DNA of 39,397 bases from Planctomycetia bacterium (lineage in GTDB: Bacteria; Planctomycetota; Planctomycetia; Gemmatales; HRBIN36), in the NCBI GenBank assembly GCA_016795155.1, contig JAEUIE010000067.1:1-39397 (forward strand), given 5' to 3'. Below are positions 757 to 13,674 of this stretch, in pieces. The first letter of the stretch is position 1, and the number at the start of each line of letters is the position of its first letter. The position numbers were made by a program, and so were the translations under genes. A model generated the notes under the pieces. The model saw only the letters and a list, made by a program, of their open reading frames with translations, made no database searches and was not told the DNA's origin.

Positions 757-3009
757 TCACTGGTCTCGCTTCTTTGCTTTCATCTCTTCGAGTTGAATCT
801 CAACTTCGATTCGTCTTAACTTAACTGCCAGTAGATCAGATTTGGTACGCGATCCCGATTGATAGCCCTTTTCCGCATACCCTTCGAACTCTTTAAGCAA
901 CTTTAAGTGCTCCTCGAGCGATTTTATTTTCATGTCACTGTCCTTGGCGAGGGCCAGCCGGGCATCCAGCAACTGCTGTGATAACTGCCCTGATTCCTCC
1001 AGGGATGCCCTGCCTGCCCGGTACATCTCTTTCCAAATGTCCATCCGTTCCTCAGCCACCTTCAGCCGTTGTTGCTTGAGTTCAAGAATCTGTGGCGAGA
1101 CATCGGGTGATGGGTTTGGTTGTGTGGACCCAGCGGGAACTTCCTGATGTGGGGCGCCCAGAACGAGAGAGTCTTTCAGTGACTTGTCCACCCGTTTGTA
1201 AGTGACACTCAGACTCCTGAATGCTTCGGTTGCATTGTTGCCTGGCTCGAAGGCCGTTGGGCTGCGGTTTAAGGGCGACTGGGGATTGGGAACGAGTTTA
1301 TCGTCCTTGAGCATGAATGGCACTGCGCCGGAAATTTGGTAGGTGAATTCGTTGTCCTTGAGTTCATAGATGCCAAGCTGCCGTTCACGAAGTAAATTTT
1401 TGTTAATCGTCTCAGCGATATAGATATCTCGGTTAAGCTTGTCTGTACTCGAGAAATACCCTTGAAGCTTATCATTTGCGTCAGCAACAGAAACGATATC
1501 CAGGTCAATCTGCTTTGGTGTGGCAGTCTCATTGAGGGCGAATACGCTCGGAGGACCATCATGATGAGAACCTTTATGGATATACCTGCGAAGATACATG
1601 TTCTTTTTGAAGATCATTTCCTCGGCTGATTCAAGTTCATTAGTGACAGGGTTGCGTTCTTCCTTTCGCCAGATGCCTTCGAGGCGGTCGTAATCACTGG
1701 CTCGACGAAGAGTCAGATGCCAAATGTCTGGATCGTTTTCTGTACTCTTCGAAACATCCTGTGCATTTTTCTTTGGTGCAAGAACTATCTCGAATTTACC
1801 CTTCAGCAACTTGATGCTGCCACGTAGCTCAGCCAGTGTAACACTCGAAGGAGAAGCAGGGTCAAATGTCTCAAAGGGAATAATCTCATAAGGAGTGAAG
1901 TGTTTATAATTCGCAGGCAACACATCAAGCCAGTTATTGGAAATGAGCACCTGATTGCCTGCAAATCTCCAGAAACTCAGCTGGCTGAGTTTGACATCTC
2001 GCCCAGATCGCATGCCAGTCAGCAACCCTACCTCTCTGGCGGTCAGACTGGTCGCATTCGACTTTTCCATCACCCATTCACCCTGCAGCAGATCATGCAG
2101 CCTTTGGGGCTTTGCCTGATTCTGAGAAGGCTGTTTCCGTGATTCAGATGGTTGCTCTCTACCGTGCCACGCCCAGGCGCCGGTACCCACGCACAAGCAT
2201 GCCAGCATAACCGCAGCAGCCATGTATTTCACTTTCGTCATCAGCATGGATGTCATTACTCCCTGGGCCAGCGTGATGGCAGCGCTGGCTGGAACCTGAG
2301 AAGTCTTATGCACGACATGGCTGGCCAGGAGCGTGGTAGCCTGTACCAGCAAGGCAGGCACCTGGGCTTCGAGCTTTGTCATCGTCAATGCGCCTGCGGT
2401 CAGCGTGGGAACGATGCCTCGCTTGAGCAGACGATCCTGCAATAGTTTCTTACCTCGTGCCAACCTACCTGCCACCGAGCCGAGTGGCCAACCTAGTTGC
2501 CTGGCTGTTTCTTCTCTGGATTGCCCCTGCAGTTGGCAGAGGATGATTGGCGTGCGGTATTTGCCGGGCAGCCTGTCGAGTTCTGCATCGAGCAGTGTAG
2601 CCAGGTCTTGCTGTTCGATGATCCGTGCAGGGTCGCTGGTGGTGATGTGGGAAGTCATGCTGGCAGCCTGTTGTTCGTGACGCAATCGACGTGCAGATTT
2701 AGCCTGAGCCTGCAAAGCAGTTCGGCGGGCAACCTGCACCAGCCAGCCTGCCACGCTGGGCCATCGCTCCATGCTTTGCCCCTTTCGAGCCAGCACCAGG
2801 AACGTTGCCTGGAAAACATCATCGGCCTGCTCGCCTGGGCCAACGAGTCGGCGAATGATCCCCAGGATCAATGGGCCATGCCGCTGAACCAGCGTGGCAA
2901 AGGCCTGCTCATCGCGCTGGGTGCGGAAACGCTCCAGCAAGGTGCCATCGTTCTCGTCGGTGCAGGCGAGATGGCGAAAGGATCGCAGATAGGAAAATAC
3001 GCCGGACAT
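757..3009 (-). CDS. ECF sigma factor with long transmembrane C-terminal extension (TIGR03067-like)
   Basis: This 750-residue protein has an ECF sigma factor at its N-terminus: region 2 about 25-100 (DEQAFATLVQRH, QADDVFQATFLVLARK) and region 4 about 135-190 (LDRLPGKYRTPIILCQLQG, then an SREETARQLGWPLGSV helix-turn-helix). A hydrophobic segment at about 262-281 follows. The remaining ~450 residues are predicted to lie across the membrane: a region resembling two TIGR03067-type units (LQGEW..., LEGIWRKEE..., TPKQIDL, GIYEL) and a charged heptad-like C-terminal coiled coil. ECF sigmas fused to membrane-anchored output or sensor domains are typical of planctomycetes; the anchor probably replaces a separate anti-sigma factor (inference). 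The start ATG has AGG six bases upstream. Confidence 0.85.
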   Translation of the reverse strand: MSGVFSYLRSFRHLACTDENDGTLLERFRTQRDEQAFATLVQRHGPLILGIIRRLVGPGEQADDVFQATFLVLARKGQSMERWPSVAGWLVQVARRTALQAQAKSARRLRHEQQAASMTSHITTSDPARIIEQQDLATLLDAELDRLPGKYRTPIILCQLQGQSREETARQLGWPLGSVAGRLARGKKLLQDRLLKRGIVPTLTAGALTMTKLEAQVPALLVQATTLLASHVVHKTSQVPASAAITLAQGVMTSMLMTKVKYMAAAVMLACLCVGTGAWAWHGREQPSESRKQPSQNQAKPQRLHDLLQGEWVMEKSNATSLTAREVGLLTGMRSGRDVKLSQLSFWRFAGNQVLISNNWLDVLPANYKHFTPYEIIPFETFDPASPSSVTLAELRGSIKLLKGKFEIVLAPKKNAQDVSKSTENDPDIWHLTLRRASDYDRLEGIWRKEERNPVTNELESAEEMIFKKNMYLRRYIHKGSHHDGPPSVFALNETATPKQIDLDIVSVADANDKLQGYFSSTDKLNRDIYIAETINKNLLRERQLGIYELKDNEFTYQISGAVPFMLKDDKLVPNPQSPLNRSPTAFEPGNNATEAFRSLSVTYKRVDKSLKDSLVLGAPHQEVPAGSTQPNPSPDVSPQILELKQQRLKVAEERMDIWKEMYRAGRASLEESGQLSQQLLDARLALAKDSDMKIKSLEEHLKLLKEFEGYAEKGYQSGSRTKSDLLAVKLRRIEVEIQLEEMKAKKRDQ

Positions 3010-9717: not shown

Positions 9718-10938
9718 ATGACTGCGCCTATGCCCGGCAAACTGTCTGCCGTTCCCGATCAACAAGGTCGTTTTGGCCCGTTTGGTGGCAGGTATGTGCC
9801 TGAAACGCTGATGCCTGCCTTGGAACAGTTGACTCAGGCTTATCTGCAGGCCAGGCAGGATCCTGCATTTCAACAGCAACTGTCGCACTATCTGTCGAAC
9901 TACGTGGGCCGCCCTACACCGCTGACTTTTGCTGAAAGGCTTACCAGGCAGGCGGGTGGCGCTCGCATTTACCTCAAGCGGGAAGACCTGCTGCATACCG
10001 GCGCACACAAGATCAATAACACCATCGGCCAGGCGCTGCTGACGTTGCGTATGGGCAAGACGCGGGTGATTGCCGAGACAGGTGCCGGGCAGCATGGCGT
10101 TGCGACTGCCACCGCGTGTGCACTGTTTGGCTTGCCTTGCCGGGTCTACATGGGTGCAGAGGATGTGCGTCGGCAGAAGCTGAACGTCTTCAAGATGCGG
10201 GCGATGGGAGCGGAAGTGTTTGAAGTAACCACCGGCAGCCGAACGCTGCGTGACGCCATCAACGAAGCCATGCGCGACTGGATGGGTTCCGTGCGGGATA
10301 CGCATTACATACTCGGCTCGGTGGTGGGCCCGCATCCTTTCCCGCTGATGGTGCGTGATTTTCAAAGTGTGATTGGCCAGGAAGCCAAGCAGCAGTGTTT
10401 ATCGCAGCTCGGCAAGTTGCCTGACATGGTGATTGCCTGTGTGGGTGGTGGCTCCAATGCAGCGGGCATGTTCTACCCATTCATTGATGATGCCTCGGTG
10501 AAGATTATCGGCGTAGAAGCAGGCGGGCGAGGTGCATCGCAAGGTGAACATGCATCAACACTCAGTTTCGGTCAGCCTGGCGTGTTGCATGGTACATTCA
10601 GTTACGTGCTGCAGGATGAAGATGGCCAGACTGCCGATGTGCATTCAGTTTCCGCAGGGCTTGACTATCCAGGAGTGGGGCCGGAGCACAGTTACTGGAA
10701 GGAATCAGGCCGGGTGCAATACACCTATGCTGATGATGCAGCGGCACTGGAAGGATTCCAGCTTTGCAGCAGGCTGGAAGGCATCATCCCTGCCCTTGAG
10801 ACATCGCATGGCGTGGTGGAAGCAATGAAGCAGGCAGCACGTTTGCCAAAGGATGCAGCAGTGGTAGTCTGTTTCAGCGGCCGGGGCGATAAAGATTGTT
10901 ATGAAGTGGCGAGGCTGTTGGGACAGGAGGCGGAGTAA
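9718..10938 (+). CDS. trpB: Tryptophan synthase beta chain
   Basis: TrpB condenses indole with serine to make tryptophan using PLP. The 406-residue protein shows [19 protein letters not shown], the [15 protein letters not shown] motif with the PLP lysine at about residue 98, [10 protein letters not shown], and the glycine-rich phosphate loop [12 protein letters not shown]. It is full length. ATG 9718 is used; ATG 9730 (residue 5) is also possible. No trpA is adjacent; trpC lies about 1.9 kb away on the other strand, so the pathway genes are not in one operon. The next gene starts 29 bases after the stop. Confidence 0.95.
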
Positions 10939-10967: not shown

Positions 10968-11408
10968 ATGATTCAGATGCATTCATTTCTCATTCTGGTA
11001 GTCTGCTGCATCGGAATGTTTCACGATGAAGAAGATATCTATGAATTTATCCCTTCGAGCACGAAATCAAAATACCACTCAGTTGGAATAAGGGATTGCC
11101 TCGGTACCATCGACGCTGATGGCAATTTCAGGCCTAATTTGTCAGATTTGGAAAAAATGATAAATGCATTTAAACGCAAGCTCCCACGCTCCCGCATGGG
11201 TCCATCAAATCTTATTGAAAGAAAACACACCAAGGAAAAAGTCTACGAAAATCGATCCGGCATCCTAGTGCCAATGGTCTTTGACGAATACCGTGGATTG
11301 ATTCCTGAAGTTGGTGGTAAGATCATTGATTTCAAGGATTACCGGTACAGTCCCGAAGCCCGGCGAATTTATAATCTGCCGGGGAGATTTGTTAGAATTG
11401 TCAGATAA
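10968..11408 (+). CDS. Exported protein, tandem paralogue 1, unrecognised domain
   Basis: This 146-residue protein begins with a hydrophobic signal-like segment (SFLILVVCCIGM) and has no family that I recognise. Its body is CLGTIDADGNFRPNLSDLE, a lysine/arginine-rich stretch, and a highly conserved end: EKVYENRSGILVPMVFDEYR, then LIPEVGGKIIDFKDYRYSP and EARRIYNLPGRFV. The same order occurs in the next two genes. The copy at 11434 is clearly a direct duplication, since even ~20 bases ahead of the start match (10948-10960 and 11411-11424). It probably acts in the cell envelope or periplasm. Confidence 0.75.
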   Translation: MIQMHSFLILVVCCIGMFHDEEDIYEFIPSSTKSKYHSVGIRDCLGTIDADGNFRPNLSDLEKMINAFKRKLPRSRMGPSNLIERKHTKEKVYENRSGILVPMVFDEYRGLIPEVGGKIIDFKDYRYSPEARRIYNLPGRFVRIVR

Positions 11409-11433
11409 GCAGTGCTTACACTTGAGATGCTCT

Positions 11434-11880
11434 ATGATTCACATGCTTTCTTTTCTGATTCCAATTGTTTGTTGCATCGGGATGCTTCACGATGAAAAAG
11501 ATAACTACGTCTATGAACCAATCAAGAGATCAACACAACACAATGTTGGTAAGAGGAATTGTTTAGGCACCATAGACGCTGATGGATGTTTCAGACCAGA
11601 TTTATCAGAATTGGAAGAGATTATTGAATCTACCAAGCGTAAGTTGGTGCGTACTAGTATAAGATCGGCTCCGCTCACGACCGCCAAGCAACCCAACGAA
11701 AAAGTTTACGAATACCGTTCTGGCATCCTCGTGCCAATGATCTTTGACGAATATCGTGGACTGATTCCCGAAGCCGGTGGCAAGATCATCGACTTCAAGG
11801 ATTATCGGTACAGTCCTGAAGCACGACGGATTTACAATCTGCCGGGGAGATTTGTCCAAGTTCCCAAATATAAGCAATGA
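11434..11880 (+). CDS. Exported protein, tandem paralogue 2, unrecognised domain
   Basis: This 148-residue paralogue is chosen from ATG 11434, which matches the start of paralogue 1 (MIHMLSFLIPIVCCIGM against MIQMHSFLILVVCCIGM); the open frame itself runs back to 11311, over the end of the preceding gene, where it is a shadow. The middle region has diverged (for example around the lysine-rich segment), while the last ~60 residues, from KVYEYRSGILVPM to IYNLPGRFV, are almost unchanged. This suggests selection on the C-terminal half. It lies 25 bases after paralogue 1 and 13 before paralogue 3, so one transcript is likely. Confidence 0.75.
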   Translation: MIHMLSFLIPIVCCIGMLHDEKDNYVYEPIKRSTQHNVGKRNCLGTIDADGCFRPDLSELEEIIESTKRKLVRTSIRSAPLTTAKQPNEKVYEYRSGILVPMIFDEYRGLIPEAGGKIIDFKDYRYSPEARRIYNLPGRFVQVPKYKQ

Positions 11881-11893
11881 TTCGGAATGATCC

Positions 11894-12811
11894 ATGCGGC
11901 GTAAGTATTTGATCCTTGGTTTGGTGATAGCCCTGACAGGTTTCCTGGCCTGGTGGTTCTGGCCGGTGCGCGCGCTGACACCACAACTGCTGGACCAGAT
12001 CAAACCGGGCATGACAGCTGATGAAGCCATCGCCATTCTCGGCAAGCCAACTTCCGATCGTTATCTTCGTGACGGCCTGGGCATTGACCGAATCATTGTC
12101 GAAGTGGATGGCAAGTCGGATTGGCAAAATGTCGTCATCTTCCGGCCTCAGAGTTCCTGGAATTCCTATCTGCAGGTTGCCCGGACCGAGGAGTTTCCGG
12201 GAAATACCTGGCAATCGGGTCAAAGTCATTTCTGGATCGACCAGCATAAGCTGCTTTGGATCACTATCGATAAGCAGAAGAAGGTAAAACAGCGAGGCCT
12301 GTGCGATTACACCGCACGGCCTGGGGAAATGAGCCAGTGGGCAGACCGGAAACTGAAATCGCTTAGCCCACCAGCACCCCCAGCTAAAACAGCTCCCGCA
12401 CCGTTGCCTAATCCGTTTCCCGAGGGTGAATACGTTTTCGAGTGGGATACCACCATTCGCGTAGTTCATCCGGTCATCGACATGGATTGTGTCGGAACCA
12501 TTGACAAGAATGGCACCTTCGTTGCTGATCTGATGGATGTCGATAAGGCCATTGAAGCATCGAAGAAAGGGACCAAGCGAGAGCTAAAAGATATTCCCAG
12601 GCTGGTGGAAGCGAAACAACCCAACGAAAAAGTCTATGAGTTTCGAAGTGGCGTATTGATACCGATGATTATCGATGCCAAAGGGCGGCTGTTGCCTGAA
12701 ATTGACGGAGAGATCATCGAATCGAAAGACTATCAGTACAGCCCCAAAGCCCGCCGCATCTACAATCTGCCAGGCCGATTTGTTCCAAAGGCAACGGGGA
12801 AAAGTTCCTAA
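11894..12811 (+). CDS. Membrane-anchored tandem paralogue 3: BamE/SmpA-like module plus shared domain
   Basis: This 305-residue protein has three parts. Residues about 4-26 form a TM anchor (LILGLVIALTGFLAWWFWPV). Residues about 27-115 look like a SmpA/OmlA/BamE-type module (LLDQIKPGMTADEAIAILGK). After a Pro/Ala linker (SPPAPPAKTAPAPLP), residues about 175-300 repeat the domain of the two preceding genes: CVGTIDKNGTF, EKVYEFRSGVLIPMIIDAKG, LLPEIDGEIIESKDYQYSP, ARRIYNLPGRFV. The fusion suggests that the domain works at the envelope. Its stop overlaps the trpC stop by 4 bases on the other strand. Confidence 0.75.
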   Translation: MRRKYLILGLVIALTGFLAWWFWPVRALTPQLLDQIKPGMTADEAIAILGKPTSDRYLRDGLGIDRIIVEVDGKSDWQNVVIFRPQSSWNSYLQVARTEEFPGNTWQSGQSHFWIDQHKLLWITIDKQKKVKQRGLCDYTARPGEMSQWADRKLKSLSPPAPPAKTAPAPLPNPFPEGEYVFEWDTTIRVVHPVIDMDCVGTIDKNGTFVADLMDVDKAIEASKKGTKRELKDIPRLVEAKQPNEKVYEFRSGVLIPMIIDAKGRLLPEIDGEIIESKDYQYSPKARRIYNLPGRFVPKATGKSS

Positions 12812-13674
12812 CGACAGAACCCCCTCACCCCCAACCCTTCTCCCACCCGGGGAGAGGGGAGAAAGTGAAATGGCACCGTGCCTAACTGCTCAAATGCAGT
12901 TTTCACATCCGTCGCTTTCATCAGCGTTTCGCCGACCAGAATGGCCTTGATGCCGGCAGCGGCGAGGGTTTCCACGTCTGCACGTGTTTTGATGCCACTT
13001 TCACTGATGACGGTGCAGGAGGCGGGAATCTGTTGAGCCAGCGCAAGCGTGTGCGACAGGTTCACTTCAAAAGTATGCAGGTTGCGGTTATTGATGCCGA
13101 TGAGCGTAGCGCCAGCAGCCAGCACGCGAGGCACATTAGCAGCTTCGTAACATTCCACGAGGGCATCCATCCCCCACGACTGAATCTCCAGAATCAGATG
13201 AGCTAGCGTGGCATCGTCAAGGATTTCTGCAATCAGCAGCACCGCATCGGCCCCTGCAGCTTTCGCCTGCAAGACCTGGTAGCGTTCCAGAATGAAGTCT
13301 TTTCTAAGCAGCGGCGTATTGACCTCGGCGCGTACTTTTCGCAGGTCATCAAGACTGCCTCCGAAATGGGGCGTATCGGTCAAGACGCTGATGCAGGCTG
13401 CACCACACTCGGCATAGGTTCTTGCAAAGGTAATAGCATCGGCATTGGCCTGGATGGCTCCTGCTGAGGGTGACTGGCGTTTGACCTCAGCGATGATGCG
13501 AATGAAATTCGTTTCTTTCAAGCTGCGATGAAAACGGCTTGGGTAATGGGTAGTGACAGGCTCGACTTTGACAGATGCCAGCGATTGCTCCAGGGCACTT
13601 TCACTGAGCTGGGCGCGAGCTGCCTTGATTTCCTCACGCTTGTCGCGAACAATCTGGTCAAGAATCGTAGGCAT
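12808..13674 (-). CDS. trpC: Indole-3-glycerol phosphate synthase
   Basis: TrpC closes the indole ring during tryptophan synthesis. The TIM-barrel protein (288 residues) shows IIAEVKRQSPSAG with the catalytic Lys, FGGSLDDLRKVR, PLLRKDFILERYQV, GADAVLLIAEIL, IGINNRNLHTFEV, SESGIKTRADVE and AILVGETLM. All key motifs are intact. The last ~20 residues (FHFLPSPRVGEGLGVRGFCR) are not TrpC-like; they are encoded by the palindromic repeat at 12820-12864, so the native C-terminus seems to have been replaced or extended. Convergent with paralogue 3. Confidence 0.94.
   Translation of the reverse strand: MPTILDQIVRDKREEIKAARAQLSESALEQSLASVKVEPVTTHYPSRFHRSLKETNFIRIIAEVKRQSPSAGAIQANADAITFARTYAECGAACISVLTDTPHFGGSLDDLRKVRAEVNTPLLRKDFILERYQVLQAKAAGADAVLLIAEILDDATLAHLILEIQSWGMDALVECYEAANVPRVLAAGATLIGINNRNLHTFEVNLSHTLALAQQIPASCTVISESGIKTRADVETLAAAGIKAILVGETLMKATDVKTAFEQLGTVPFHFLPSPRVGEGLGVRGFCR
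12820..12864. repeat. CCCTCACC/CTCTCC palindromic repeat inside trpC 3' end
   Basis: This copy matches the layout of 3287-3330: CCCCCTCACCCCCAACCC, a short palindromic core, then GGGGAGAGGGGAGAAA. It lies inside the trpC coding sequence and encodes its unusual C-terminus. Confidence 0.75.

Follow-up and report, generated by a model that had tools for sequence, protein, structure and literature searches.

Variable cassettes in which a surface protein is accompanied by a small exported accessory, the broad kind of locus to which the genes described here would belong, are already familiar. Polymorphic toxin-immunity loci are alike in that a large exported-type protein with a conserved trunk and a variable C-terminal half is followed by small variable tandem genes, an arrangement seen here in genome G003. 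They differ in that here no toxin domain is recognised, the C-terminal regions of the large partner proteins form one homologous family and the small proteins carry a constant block. The pilin and vls loci, as examples of cassettes for antigenic variation, resemble the present one in having a variable block between near-identical ends and tandem mosaic copies; here, however, two genes vary together, and no expression locus with silent cassettes was seen. We tentatively assign the three genes to a lineage-restricted family of beta-rich, exported domains that usually supplies the smaller, second part of a surface cassette made up of two genes; the window (the whole stretch of 39,397 nucleotides that was analysed) holds an orphan version. 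Our confidence in this reading is somewhat less than even.

Copy 1 (W1; 10968-11408; 146 aa), copy 2 (W2; 11434-11880; 148 aa) and copy 3 (W3; 11894-12811; 305 aa) are open reading frames (ORFs) on the forward strand. Copies 1 and 2 have the same architecture, a hydrophobic N-terminal segment followed by the domain (profile matches at 11022-11399, E 2.8e-41, and 11488-11862, E 4.1e-41), and copy 3 joins a predicted transmembrane (TM) anchor, a BamE-like module and a proline-rich linker to the same domain (12416-12790, forward strand; match to profile A4, E 8.5e-42). An earlier note on this DNA had described three neighbouring genes with a common C-terminal domain, and the motifs it quoted are indeed present in all three. 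The spacings it gave also agree with the measured gaps of 29 bases between trpB and copy 1, 25 between copies 1 and 2 and 13 between copies 2 and 3; the start of copy 2 was set at ATG 11434, and a longer TTG start at 11311 would overlap copy 1. The likeness between the copies is beyond chance (tblastn over the whole genome, E 4.6e-61 and 2.4e-33). With 68% identity, copies 1 and 2 have their leader in common as well, the duplicated unit apparently beginning about 20 bases before the start codon. Their GC3 (10968-11880) is 0.44 compared with 0.55-0.64 in the neighbouring genes sampled, and the N-terminal part of copy 3 has a normal value of 0.60. No sigma-70-like promoter was found in the region, terminator-like sites in it were not above chance level, and the window held no RNA families.

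The trpB gene (9718-10938, forward strand; PALP E 1.4e-41) is the upstream neighbour of copy 1 by position only. Six relatives of the same family have a trpB with 75-78% identity, but other genes come after it and the domain adjoins it in none of the six. A meaningful link to trpB was thus not supported, and we rejected the linkage as a functional clue because the arrangement is not conserved in these relatives.

The copies are strongly diverged outside a C-terminal block (EKVYE..RSG to NLPGRFV), the constant part, which lies at 11232-11393 in copy 1 and at 11701-11862 in copy 2 (both forward strand). Within it, 50/53 residues are identical between copies 1 and 2 and 36-37/53 between copy 3 and these two, so that the description of the last ~60 residues as nearly unchanged applies to copies 1 and 2 and less so to copy 3. 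When copies 1 and 2 are compared over their last 58 codons, synonymous divergence is strong (dS 0.79) and nonsynonymous change is low (dN 0.074; dN/dS ~0.09); the C-terminal block is therefore under purifying selection, as had been proposed for this end. One half of the domain can be aligned with the other (hhalign score 25.3, P 4e-5), with a score that was reached by 0/200 column shuffles (shuffle maximum 16.4), which makes the ~125-aa domain look like an internal duplication of one hairpin-like unit of the type RxGxLxPGxLxxxGxFxP.

Searches with the shared domain gave no match at cut-off in Pfam, NCBIfam, PHROGs or PADLOC, a profile of 19 copies had no match among PDB sequences, and nothing on the domain was found in the literature. 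The statement that no family can be assigned therefore stands after the database check, and both the domain family and the domain of its partner are unnamed in every library searched. The hyaluronate lyase N-terminal beta-sheet domain (PF21461) was weakly similar to 1/19 members over 31 hairpin residues (E 0.003-0.004), with a score far below the cut-off (17 bits versus 27), and was taken as a chance match. Structure prediction yielded a beta-rich core and no reliable match in fold libraries. In two AlphaFold models the conserved part of this core has a pLDDT of about 80-88, the domain strands of copy 3 are placed at residues 180-298 with a pLDDT of about 78-88, and Foldseek and VIA-align searches with the domain model gave no E < 0.001 and a best VIA Z of 2.8 (model pLDDT 72, 8 sequences). 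The alignments behind the models, made from window sequences and related loci, are thin (8 rows), and the domain may still have a known fold.

The signal segment reported for copies 1 and 2 corresponds to an N-terminal 12-residue hydrophobic run, which however has no K/R ahead of it. Export is better supported by the relatives of the domain, several of which carry ordinary signal peptides, than by these leaders, and the window copies would presumably be exported as well. For copy 3 the proposed anchor is borne out by prediction: residues 1-23 (11894-11962, forward strand; MRRK start, no Cys) form a putative TM helix or uncleaved anchor, modelled by AlphaFold as a helix at residues 2-22. The proposed BamE/SmpA-like module is less certain. 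Residues 28-56 (11975-12061, forward strand) resemble PF04355 (E 1.4e-4) with 22.0 bits, just below the curated Pfam gathering cut-off of 23.2, and have weak PDB matches to BamE (E 1.4 and 2.2). The BamE fold packs two helices on a three-stranded sheet; in copy 3, helices and three strands are predicted for residues 30-138, but with a pLDDT mostly of 30-70, and Foldseek placed OsmE and BamE at E 1.7-1.8 with this low-pLDDT model. The start of copy 3, MRRKYLILGLVIALTGFLAWWFWPV, contains no cysteine and so lacks the lipobox of a BamE lipoprotein. Because of the score under the cut-off and the missing lipobox we do not claim membership of the BamE family; the shared domain is unrelated to BamE/SmpA, and nothing related to the BamE-like stretch was found in the family's other genomes.

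Profile searches detected 20 copies of the domain in 6/102 genomes of the order, belonging to two families. No further genomes with the domain were found in samples of 392 phylum and 398 class genomes, and viral contigs, plasmids and phages held no relatives. Genome contigs gave no match in a single-protein search and 3 loci in a profile search. The count of paralogues in related genomes revealed copies mostly in multiples, and their presence in six genomes across two families answers the concern that only close relatives might carry the domain. Nearly all loci hold at least two copies, either as genes in tandem or as domains fused within one protein. The window genome (G000) has three genes, G097 has three copies with a fourth in one frame with a leucine-rich-repeat (LRR) protein, G099 has three copies at C1112, and G064 has two; fusions of two domains in one protein occur at two loci of G003 and two of G099. 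One copy was found in G057. In the tree, single-domain copies mostly group by locus, which points to tandem expansion having happened repeatedly. One of the tandem copies in G097 (L039:7585-8025) is out of frame just after the signal peptide when compared with its neighbours, and is either a silent copy or a sequencing error. Where a domain copy shares an open frame with the LRR protein in the same genome (L039:4167-6179), the leader of the LRR gene recurs ahead of the domain, which suggests a recent fusion or a lost stop.

At 7/9 loci the small domain is immediately preceded, on the same strand, by a gene for a large surface-type protein. The picture drawn by the earlier note proved incomplete in that this protein is the usual neighbour. 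The C-terminal ~370 residues of the partners are homologous between loci (C1112 versus G097, E 6e-45) and contain no recognised Pfam domain; several partners have an LEDR/LEDxNAP-like N-terminal segment, and some carry FG-GAP, SdrD or cadherin-like repeats. The partner profile is present in 6/102 genomes, four of which share the small domain (hypergeometric p 5e-5), and a small-domain gene comes after the partner at each of the seven strong partner loci. The two weaker relatives of the partner stand without the small domain next to them: the one in G074 has a different exported gene behind it, and the frame of the one in G088 reaches the contig end. The small exported protein behind the diverged partner in G074 (L085:314-1006) was rejected as a distant member of the family (hhalign probability 0.1%). 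The G064 partner lies in two parts ~4 kb apart with two transposase-like ORFs between them (L043:6863-9298 and L083/L088), an apparent IS disruption. Distances among partners and among small domains correlate (Mantel r 0.84, p 0.003; permuted exactly over 6 loci, of which three are paralogous and all in G099), and each of these three G099 loci follows its own group. No partner was detected in the window genome or in G057, so the domain can exist without one.

Linkage and co-divergence could reflect the joint inheritance of neighbouring genes. An explanation that we regard as somewhat unlikely holds that the small proteins are independent secreted or periplasmic structural or ligand-binding proteins, and that their upstream linkage is an accident of the shared descent of few loci. 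The orphan loci in G000 and G057, the position of the window genes behind trpB and the occurrence of the family in 6 genomes only are in keeping with this explanation, but the domain is linked to the partner at 7/9 loci, three of which are diverged paralogues from a single genome, and this argues against it.

Two cassettes in G003 (L037:4048-6158 and L038:799-2910) have near-identical end blocks (98-99.5%) around a block of 1.25 kb. The end blocks of 436 bp and 427 bp are 99.5% and 97.9% identical, respectively, and the 1248 and 1249 bp between them align at only 46%; this clearest mosaic comes from a single metagenome-assembled bin, in which two strains could be mixed. The divergent block takes in the partner's C-terminal half, the gap between the two genes and the first of the two domains in the small protein; the second of these domains is nearly identical between the cassettes. 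Tandem copies in G097 likewise have ends up to 95-100% identical and a middle of 60-80%. This mosaic pattern is consistent with gene conversion in which constant ends flank a variable centre, and the conserved C-terminal end can be taken as the constant part of the mosaic genes. In the central segment of G099, at a GC3 of 93-95%, nonsynonymous change exceeds synonymous change per site; a test for positive selection on this segment was not significant (binomial p 0.075-0.125). The partner of the second G003 cassette is without the LEDR segment of the first and ~570 bp shorter there.

As variation in the partner half goes with variation in the adjacent domain, the loci might also be read as toxin-immunity-like modules, in which the partner would be a polymorphic effector with a varying C-terminal half, the exported proteins downstream its cognate immunity proteins, and the extra copies and the window trio orphan immunity genes. 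The G003 partner, with its conserved N-terminal half and a variable C-terminal half adjoining the variable first small domain, the tandem arrays downstream of a large exported-type protein and the orphan arrays in G000 and G057 all agree with such modules. We nevertheless consider them quite improbable here, as the partner's C-terminal halves from all loci can be aligned as a single family and not as exchanged folds, Pfam shows no known toxin domain in this region, and its invariant residues (P, D, P, W, F) do not suggest catalysis. In addition, a constant block in the small protein across different partners is unusual for an immunity protein, and PADLOC gave no match. It is very unlikely that the trio in the window consists of decaying or dispensable paralogues that outlasted a lost partner and are carried on a trpB read-through transcript, since for all the missing partner in G000, the atypical composition of copies 1 and 2 and the divergence outside the C-terminal block, the three ORFs are intact and that block is under purifying selection at high dS.

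In the two-gene surface cassette that we favour, the first gene would encode a large surface-type protein ending in the conserved ~370-residue domain, and the second gene together with its tandem copies would encode the exported domain. The small proteins may bind the C-terminal half of the partner outside the inner membrane, with the C-terminal block (VYE.RSG ... YNLPGRF) as a constant scaffold and the central segment as a variable contact face, and recognition or adhesion may be the purpose of the pair. Duplication, fusion and gene conversion between the near-identical ends would give rise to new variants. In the orphan version in the window, copies 1 and 2 would be free exported forms, and copy 3 would be tethered to the membrane through an anchor and a BamE-like module of its own, which would replace the partner. 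A more specific form, which we think unlikely, is that in this cassette, so far seen in one order only (probably Gemmatales), the partner C-terminal half and the exported domain vary jointly and are swapped as a unit between the constant ends, which would yield a repertoire of matching surface pairs for recognition or escape, and that the window holds a derived orphan array anchored via the BamE-like module. If such paired variation is real, the two proteins of this bacterial surface system would be diversifying in concert. The analysis defines two unnamed linked domain families, probably of planctomycetes, in which large cell-surface proteins are poorly understood, and the window copy illustrates how a domain may be re-used with a membrane anchor where the partner was not found.

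Two further observations were made in the window. In the region 12806-12862, copy 3 and trpC are convergent with a 4-base overlap, and the tail of the trpC ORF (PSPRVGEGLGVRG) reads through a CCCTCACCCCCAACCC-type element, which is present as a single copy in the window. The gene at 757-3009 encodes a 750-residue ECF-type sigma factor, whose long C-terminal extension has a weak match to the outer membrane efflux protein PF02321 (23.7 bits versus a cut-off of 22).
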